This document shows positions 9,585 through 44,848 of a DNA stretch of 64,000 nt, piece after piece. The translations under genes were made by a program, and so were the position numbers. Position 1 is the first letter of the stretch. Each line of letters begins with the position of its first letter. The DNA lies in NCBI RefSeq assembly GCF_023238205.1, contig NZ_CP096659.1, forward strand, positions 1,612,001 through 1,676,000, given 5' to 3'. The stretch is from Halorussus limi (lineage in GTDB: Archaea > Halobacteriota > Halobacteria > Halobacteriales > Haladaptataceae). The notes beneath the pieces were generated by a model. That model made no database searches and was not told where the DNA came from. It saw only the letters and a list, made by a program, of their open reading frames with translations.

Positions 9585-9924
9585 GGTTCCGGGCGTGCGA
9601 CTCGTCTGCTCGAGTCACCGTAGTTGGAGTTTCCGCGACGCGGACGACTCGCTTCGCTCGTCGTCGTTGCGTCGCGGCAAAAACATCCTGACGGAGTTTC
9701 ACGCGAGTGAAACGAGCGTGAAGCACGTCAGGTCGTGAACAAAGTGAACGTCCTGACGGAGATTTGAACTCGCCGAGACGGTCCGGGCGTGCGGCCTTCG
9801 GCCGTTCCGGGCGTGCGACTCGTCTGCTCAAATCTCCGTGGTTGGAGTTTCCGCGACGCGGACGACTCGCTTCGCTCGTCGTCGTTGCGTCGCGGCAGAA
9901 ACGTCCTGACGGAGATTTGAACTC
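9585..9924. repeat. Tandem array of partial tRNA-Arg 3' ends and palindromic spacers
   Basis: A direct repeat of about 117 bases occurs at 9585-9701 and 9803-9919 (offset 218). It contains GGGCGTGCGACTCGTCTGCT, then a palindrome-rich block (GACGACTCGCTTCGCTCGTC flanked by GCGACGC-type arms), then a tRNA-Arg 3' terminus. The first copy's terminus is degenerate, the second is the real tRNA. A third copy of the last 22 bases of the tRNA gene lies at 9750-9771. ACGGAGATTTGA (9757-9768) also recurs inverted at 9828-9839. This stretch (9506-9901) holds no gene. Confidence 0.85.
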
Positions 9925-9974
9925 CGGTCCCTGGCTCCGCAAGCCAAGAGGATAGTCCACTACCCTATCAGGAC
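9902..9974 (-). tRNA. tRNA-Arg (anticodon GCG)
   Basis: On the minus strand the sequence folds as a full cloverleaf. The acceptor is GTCCTGA/TCAGGAC (7 perfect pairs, discriminator G). The anticodon arm is TTGGC-TTGCGGA-GCCAG with anticodon GCG (reads CGC). The T arm is CGGAG-TTCAAAT-CTCCG. No CCA is encoded, as usual in haloarchaea, and no intron is seen. The 3' flank is the duplicated array described at 9585-9924. Confidence 0.93.
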
Positions 9975-44052: not shown

Positions 44053-44496
44053 CTACTCCGATTCTGACCGAATAGCGTTCACCCAGTTTTCTAGGGCGTA
44101 ATCCGCTGCCCAATTGACATTCGGAGACGTTTTCTCGGATTCTTCTACTCGTATTCCCATCGAAGTCTTCGGTGCGTCTGCTATCGGTACGACGAACGAC
44201 CGCTCGATTTCTGGTGAATAAACCGCGAAGACATCGATTTCTCCTTCATATCCTTCCTTCTCGACTTTTCTGGTCAGTGTTCCTGAGCTTCTGGTTTCGA
44301 ACTGAACGCGTCCGTTTTCTATTCGTCCTGTTTTAATCTGAACTCGATAAAAATGTCCAGATTCTTCCACTACGACATCGTATCTCTCGTTATCGCCAAA
44401 GGGTTCTAAGGCAGTCAGACCATTCCGGATAAATTCGAAAATAATTGCCGCCTCGGTCTGCTGGCCGCGTTCTTTAGGGTGCACTATCTCACTCAT
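44053..44496 (-). CDS. PD-(D/E)XK nuclease, homing-endonuclease-like (PDDEXK_5 type)
   Basis: A 147-residue protein. It begins SEIVHPKERGQQTEAAIIFEFIRNG, as in the group I intron-associated PD-(D/E)XK family. The catalytic strands are NERYDVVVEESGHFYRVQIKTG, giving Asp ... Gln-x-Lys (a QxK variant of ExK) plus an upstream Glu in RGQQTEA. It may cut or bind structured DNA. The gene is markedly AT-richer than its neighbours and uses codons they avoid (TCT, AGA, ATA), which points to recent transfer. It lies 240 bases from the intron-bearing tRNA-Lys. No other mobile-element gene survives next to it. Confidence 0.75.
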   Translation of the reverse strand: MSEIVHPKERGQQTEAAIIFEFIRNGLTALEPFGDNERYDVVVEESGHFYRVQIKTGRIENGRVQFETRSSGTLTRKVEKEGYEGEIDVFAVYSPEIERSFVVPIADAPKTSMGIRVEESEKTSPNVNWAADYALENWVNAIRSESE

Positions 44497-44615
44497 ACTC
44501 GCTATTTAGTCGATATTGACTAAAATGTAGCCCTTCCGTCTTAGGTGGAAGAGCAAGCAGGTCGCTGAGAAGAGACTGATTCATGATTACAATTTTGCTC
44601 ACCACAGTCAGACCG

Positions 44616-44735
44616 GGCTAGAAGGGATTGAACCACGCCGAGAGGTTCCTGCTCACTGCGTTGCGCGGGCGTGCGACTCGTCTACCCTCGAATCTTTTCT
44701 AACGGCTTCGCTCTTCACTTCGTTCGTCGCAGAAG
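44616..44735. repeat. Partial tRNA-Lys 3' copy and palindromic spacer
   Basis: GGGCTAGAAGGGATTGAACC at 44616-44635 is a diverged copy of the tRNA-Lys 3' end (44737 onward). Between the two lie GGGCGTGCGACTCGTCT, an inverted T-arm-like CTCGAATCTTTTCT and a GCTTCGCTC-rich block. The same order of parts occurs beside tRNA-Arg at 9.6-9.9 kb. No gene lies in this segment. Confidence 0.7.
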
Positions 44736-44848
44736 CGGGCTGGAAGGGATTTGAACCCCTGGCCGTCTGGTGTCTTCCACGACCATCCGGAAGACCCGGG
44801 TGCGTCGTGCTAAAAGCCAGACGCTCTGCCTAACTGAGCTACCAGCCC
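44736..44848 (-). tRNA. tRNA-Lys (anticodon TTT) with a 39-nt intron
   Basis: The minus strand folds as a tRNA with acceptor GGGCTGG/CCAGCCC (discriminator G), D arm GCTC/GAGC, anticodon stem TCTGG/CCAGA with anticodon TTT in CTTTTA, and T arm with GGTTCAAATC. A 39-nt intron interrupts the loop after A37, the canonical archaeal 37/38 site. The intron can fold by CACGAC/GTCGTG and CCGG/CCGG pairing, consistent with a bulge-helix-bulge for the splicing endonuclease. Exons are 38 and 36 nt. CCA is not encoded. Confidence 0.92.

Follow-up and report, generated by a model that had tools for sequence, protein, structure and literature searches.

Structured repeats carrying copies of the tRNA 3' end lie directly downstream of tRNA genes in Halobacteriales

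The window analysed here, a stretch of 64,000 nucleotides from the 4.62-Mb genome of Halorussus limi, carries an intron-bearing tRNA-Lys(UUU) gene on its minus strand (44736–44848), which was missed by ARAGORN in a default run but found by the Rfam tRNA model (RF00005, 57.8 bits). This gene hosts a unit, in degenerate form, of a family of structured repeats. The unit (44614–44848 including the tRNA) lies entirely on the minus strand, that is the strand of the tRNA, and reads in the order tRNA, HP1, an inverted T arm (the anti), a core with an inner hairpin and a copy of tRNA positions 53–73. HP1 (44703–44735) is a GC-rich hairpin block of type B, CTTCTGCGACGAACGAAGTGA...GCGAAGCCG, which is likewise found at the orthologous loci of genomes G015, G008 and G007; it is the block that a preliminary description of this DNA had recognised as a GCTTCGCTC palindrome. 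Next come the anti, an inverted and diverged T-arm copy (TTAGAAAAGATTCGAGGG; about 44685–44702, as delimited by alignment with other units), an exact match to the conserved core 5' arm AGACGAGTCGCACGCCC (44667–44683), an inner hairpin of the short type (44648–44666; R1 match C1:1656624-1656695, 59.2 bits) and the core 3' arm (ACCTCTCGGCGTG; 44634–44648), which pairs with the 5' arm as judged from the unit alignment and stem covariation. Hence, the direct copy, the core, the inverted T-arm-like stretch and the palindromic block that had been named beside tRNA-Lys are all there, the only correction being that the diverged direct copy, which lacks one T-loop A, occupies 44614–44633, two bases to the left of the position given earlier (44616–44635). 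The orthologous Lys locus carries intact units in other Halorussus. The tRNA-Lys(UUU) gene itself contains the intron at nine of 16 Halorussus loci and lacks it at seven.

The order of parts at tRNA-Lys equals that at tRNA-Arg, as had been proposed, and the same order is observed behind 29 isoacceptor types in ~30 genomes. In the window, the tRNA-Arg(GCG) gene (9902–9974, minus strand, called by ARAGORN) hosts an array of two units (9591–9974), whose parts again all lie on the minus strand. The first consists of a strong HP1 hairpin (9848–9901; z -3.9), an anti (ACGGAGATTTGAGC; 9826–9839) that is complementary to the Arg T arm and forms a perfect 12-nt inverted repeat with the tRNA as well as with the copy, the core 5' arm (9809–9825; exact core, R1 89.7 bits), the inner hairpin with the core 3' arm (9771–9808) and a perfect copy of tRNA-Arg positions 53–73 (9749–9769). 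A partial copy of the acceptor end (CTCCGTCAGGATG; 9684–9696) precedes the second unit (9591–9683, minus strand; HP1 9630–9683, anti 9608–9623, core 9591–9607), which gives a weak R1 match and is incomplete, its own copy being missing. In general, arrays read tRNA-HP1-HP2-copy-HP1-HP2-copy and so forth, where HP2 denotes the hairpin of anti, core and copy. Folding energy is a poor test for single units, as the Arg unit reaches a z of -2.8 and the Lys unit folds no better than shuffled sequences (z +0.8).

The exact core occurs three times in the window and four times in the genome, each time 3' of a tRNA gene, namely twice at Arg-GCG, once at Lys-UUU and once at the tRNA at C1:3544419, which has a UGA anticodon (Ser). 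Weaker matches follow Lys-CUU, Tyr and the tRNA at 3494566. Of the 49 tRNA genes, ten have their own 3' end duplicated within 170 nt, with scores of 15–24 as compared to a best score of 12 for shuffled sequences. Three of these ten (Val, the tRNA at 3323126 and Gly) display the same anatomy with a different core, so that membership extends beyond this core. The unit-bearing tRNAs of this genome are not set apart by HP1-like folding (mean z -1.06 versus -1.03). A degenerate unit at G000 C1:3349431-3349484 (L091) has no tRNA gene nearby.

A covariance model built from six units matched 82 of 99 relatives, with up to about 23 matches per genome. In a draw across the phylum, matches were obtained in 47 of ~53 genomes of the same order and in none of ~240 others, and the family is so far confined to Halobacteriales. 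We fetched 120 loci from ~30 genomes, which were picked by score so that weak matches are under-sampled. In the first 40, every unit is located directly 3' of a tRNA gene and on the same strand (a few tRNAs missed by ARAGORN were identified by eye), and across the 120 loci a called tRNA precedes 152 of 161 matches. These numbers, together with the four exact cores of this genome, support the earlier suggestion of a tRNA-linked repeat family. A core that is equally spread away from tRNA genes is excluded for exact and strong matches, the degenerate unit at C1:3349431 being the one without a tRNA. Units are ~110–190 bp in size and non-coding, and none of the 145 that were measured in detail has cargo or a gene between tRNA and copy. 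The 3' ends of essential genes are occupied by these units, which apparently are unannotated, in most haloarchaea examined.

The boundaries of the copy are sharp. Identity between copy and own tRNA is 0.92–1.00 at positions 53–73, as compared to 0.58 at position 52, 0.35 at position 51 and 0.66 at position 74 (130 units), showing that the copy begins at G53 and stops at 73; the slow drop beyond position 74 is explained by the resemblance of HP1s to each other. In agreement with the view that the flanking copies follow the local tRNA, the direct copy is identical to its own tRNA in 20 of 20 positions in 99 of 145 units. Among these 145 units, CCA is present in no gene and in one copy, which indicates that the copies derive from the gene or the precursor, and which makes their origin by reverse transcription of mature tRNA unlikely. 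Elements of tyrosine integrases display a direct repeat of the tRNA 3' end whose sharp edge falls in the anticodon or T loop, and the copy of positions 53–73 is such a repeat. Its left edge is located in the T loop, one of three tRNA regions used by these enzymes (PMC8371274; for phage Ms6, PMC1762012). An altered T loop (GTTCACAATCC or GTTCGCAATCC) recurs in copies behind unrelated tRNAs (L143, L145, L160 and the units C1:3102769 and C1:2307857 of the present genome).

The anti follows the T loop as well, with TTCAAAT answered by ATTTGAA, TTCGAAT by ATTCGAA, TTCGACT by AGTCGAA and TTCAATT by AATTGAA. On average, it matches its own tRNA with 10.3 as compared to 7.84 (sd 0.13) after permutation, a value as high being reached in none of 2000 permutations (z 18.7), which bears out that the inverted copy tracks the T arm of each tRNA. 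Nevertheless, the match is imperfect in that another tRNA type fits better in 81 of 138 units, and a few antis look foreign (L191, L134). Such imperfect and foreign antis would fit units that pass between tRNAs and adapt thereafter, but they provide no proof. A chance repeat can be dismissed given the 4/4 exact cores at tRNAs, the scores of shuffled copies, the permuted antis and the linkage of 152/161 matches.

Between the anti and copy arms there is a stem of the form CGAG-T-CG / CG-T-CTCG, which contains a T.T mismatch; to this are added an asymmetric loop and an inner hairpin that varies. Among 78 distinct units, 95.8% of cells are paired as compared to 86.4% in shuffled data, and 88 cells are double-changed versus 24.7 upon shuffling (0/500 shuffles), with double changes in 11 of 15 stem pairs. 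Shifting the stem partners abolished this covariation signal, and the estimate is conservative because the alignment had been fitted to another register. The units contain covarying helices on one strand, as structured RNAs do. An Rfam search returned only tRNA above the cut-off and thus gave no match to a known RNA family such as RtT. In ten stem pairs, G.T outnumbers A.C by 22 to 5 (154 units; p 0.0015, the cells not being independent), suggesting that the folding strand is probably the tRNA-sense one. The anti arm, if position 54 is set aside, shows no such excess of G.T over A.C (26 versus 31).

Units are gained and lost as wholes. At the Lys-UUU locus of 16 Halorussus, zero, one or two units are observed, G010 having none, and before a common flank G014 has one unit and G004 HP1 alone, with the junction inside HP1. 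Copy number also varies at Arg-GCG, where G006 has five matches. Overall, zero to five units are found at one tRNA, and they are absent in some close relatives and in some whole genomes. Units at different tRNAs (Arg/Val, Arg/Ala) can be near-identical in HP1 and core and differ in the anti flank. Core similarity is hardly tied to tRNA or genome, and neighbours from the same tRNA are enriched within the genus. Interspecies conservation amounts to 0.94 for the copy, 0.89 for the anti and 0.96 for the tRNA as compared to 0.59 for HP1 and 0.69 for the upstream flank, which means constraint, homogenisation or both.

Adjoining the Lys unit, a gene encoding a PDDEXK_5 endonuclease-like protein of 147 aa is present on the minus strand (44053–44496; Pfam PF11645, E 3e-34). 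In Halorussus, 22 of 24 PDDEXK_5 genes are located 3' of a tRNA gene (L342-L361, L081, L082), mostly between two complete tRNA-Asp genes and in the remaining cases downstream of tRNA-Lys or flanked by tRNA-Asn and tRNA-Met. The gene is tied to tRNA genes but probably not a part of the unit; possibly, it represents a tRNA-linked homing cassette. G010 has the gene without a unit, most unit-bearing tRNAs have no such gene, and in G007 a unit is interrupted by it. As a mover of the units PDDEXK_5 was rejected, since it is linked to tRNAs but dissociable from units (G010). Both integrase-adjacent tRNAs of this genome (Gly 853051, Glu 3072495) are devoid of a unit. The 145 measured units are all situated within a few hundred bp of the tRNA, and the integrase gene or cargo between repeats that marks a tyrosine-integrase element is absent from them. 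Phage and plasmid records contained no unit, one weak 36-nt match in a Streptomyces phage being taken as chance. Likewise, none of 35 IMG/VR stretches with ACGCCCGGACCGTCT matched the model, and a second viral pattern yielded nothing. The sole viral match is L249 1900-2700 (IMG/VR UViG_3300010222_000002), where a tRNA-Gly gene on a 73-kb viral contig is followed by one complete unit; this tRNA gene is 5'-truncated, its 5' acceptor strand having been replaced. The contig is a possible vehicle for unit transfer.

In view of the boundaries, of the changes by whole units and of the parts that different tRNAs have in common, we favour, tentatively and with somewhat less than even confidence, a non-coding cassette whose point of entry into tRNA genes is the T loop, which leaves the tRNA restored and which is recognised via its folded hairpin. 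The cassette would comprise, in this order, tRNA positions 53–73, HP1, the anti and the core hairpin. Recombination would insert a new cassette at the T-loop junction G53/T54, and tRNA function would be kept as the old 3' end is either shifted downstream or duplicated. The structure that a putative recombinase recognises may be HP2 in its fold on the tRNA-sense strand; complementarity of anti and copy would then be maintained because the hairpin is needed, and units could be deleted by homologous recombination between HP1 copies. The sharp 53–73 edges, with the left edge in the T loop, and the gain and loss of units, as exemplified by their differing numbers at Lys-UUU and Arg-GCG, favour a recombination element. 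The HP1 and core sequences common to different tRNAs, the foreign-looking antis, the complete unit on a viral contig, the stem covariation and the CCA-less genes and copies, which speak against mature tRNA as the origin, point in the same direction. On the other hand, no recombinase is linked to the units, nor was an excised form observed, and the conservation of copy and anti resembles that of the tRNA, beyond what is expected for passive insertions. Moreover, a cassette inserted from another tRNA would leave the recipient with the wrong acceptor end, so that simple cassette insertion leaves the spread with local copies unexplained, and the G004/G014 junction within HP1 looks like a homologous deletion. 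The G.T excess, which speaks for folding of the sense strand as RNA or as single-stranded DNA, suits an RNA at least equally.

As the main alternative, in which we place rather low confidence, the units could be the trailer of the tRNA transcript, a putative structured RNA with HP2 as an RNA hairpin serving as protein site or switch. The anti would pair with its own T arm or with the copy, the copy could protect the tRNA or offer an alternative 3' end, and maturation could switch between states. The location of all units on the tRNA strand directly 3' of the tRNA, the 22:5 ratio (p 0.0015, with the dependence between cells noted above), the strong covariation, the tRNA-like conservation of copy and anti and an anti that follows the local tRNA favour such a trailer. 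This reading has to contend with the range of zero to five units per tRNA, their absence from some close relatives or whole genomes, the missing G.T excess in the anti arm (position 54 apart) and the T-rich stretches after the tRNA end, which make read-through putative. A cassette and a co-transcribed RNA are compatible, and both can hold. Both are more likely than two further explanations. In the first, the units are functionless by-products of DNA repair: breaks at or near the T loop would be mended with tandem duplications and with switches of template among arrays that have HP1 and T-loop sequence in common, and quasi-palindrome correction would preserve arm complementarity. This would account for arrays that are mosaics of HP1 types, for the HP1-internal junction of G004/G014 and for units with foreign antis. 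It is improbable, as correction of double-stranded DNA is not expected to make G.T commoner than A.C on one strand and as the core, including unpaired conserved bases, is kept order-wide. Even less credence is given to scars from attachment sites of larger tRNA-targeting elements, such as proviruses or homing PDDEXK_5 cassettes, that have since lost their cargo. The PDDEXK_5 genes 3' of tRNAs (22/24 Halorussus cases), the gene inside a unit in G007 and the unit on a viral contig fit this idea, but it is opposed by 0/145 units with cargo between tRNA and copy, by the PDDEXK_5 gene without a unit in G010 and the many unit-bearing tRNAs without the gene, and by one core at 29 tRNA types, which would call for a single element family with every specificity.

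At the tyrT locus of E. coli, tandem 178-bp repeats (RtT RNA) follow a tRNA gene, each with a copy of its 3' end, and they are known from one enterobacterial tRNA locus. The haloarchaeal units are similarly tandem, 3' of a tRNA and equipped with 3'-end copies, but they differ in giving no Rfam match. An 18-bp archaeal palindrome also lies directly 3' of the tRNA gene, at about half of the tRNA genes; it is known from one species and has neither a tRNA copy nor an inverted arm. The attC sites of integrons form imperfect hairpins with the order R''-L''-variable end-L'-R', of which the bottom strand folds. The units resemble them in having outer arms, short spacers, inner arms and a variable end, in being repeated at one anchor, and in a G|TT in the 3' arm, and their hairpin order and covariation are similar. 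However, their arms are tRNA sequence, the outer one being the T loop, and the wobble excess points to the sense strand as the one that appears to fold (for integron cassette arrays and attC as background, see PMC8946536). With attL/attR of tyrosine integrases in genomic islands and proviruses (PMC8371274, PMC4383910) the units share the direct repeat of the tRNA 3' end from the T loop, the restored tRNA and possible tandem accretion, but they are without integrase or cargo, measure ~110–190 bp and combine a covarying hairpin with one core at 29 tRNA types. The MITE, PATE and SMR repeats of Haloquadratum are comparable as transposase-free haloarchaeal repeats with palindromes; the part of PMC3119063 drawn on here describes neither tRNA anchoring nor tRNA-end copies for them, and the units have no terminal inverted repeats in common, as MITEs or insertion sequences would, their ends being the HP1 start and the core 3' arm.

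No description of the family was found in the open-access papers searched, and earlier work may exist elsewhere. The family seems undescribed. We consider the chances evenly balanced that these are order-wide, minimal, tRNA-attached cassettes which enter almost any haloarchaeal tRNA gene by targeting the universal T loop, leave the tRNA restored and have their inverted arm re-matched to each tRNA, and which represent a new type of mobile element or a tRNA-linked regulatory RNA outside the families tested. If the units move, few known site-specific cassettes would be smaller, and their target rule would span T loops generally. If they are RNAs, tRNA transcripts across the order would have a structured trailer that is so far uncharacterised and could govern maturation. 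In both cases, the units blur the annotation of attachment sites and tRNA fragments, and they offer a natural test system for the duplication and identity upkeep of tRNA 3' ends. About a dozen tRNA genes are clustered at G000 C4:132598-135401 on a secondary contig of 169 kb, an arrangement reminiscent of some plasmids or viruses.
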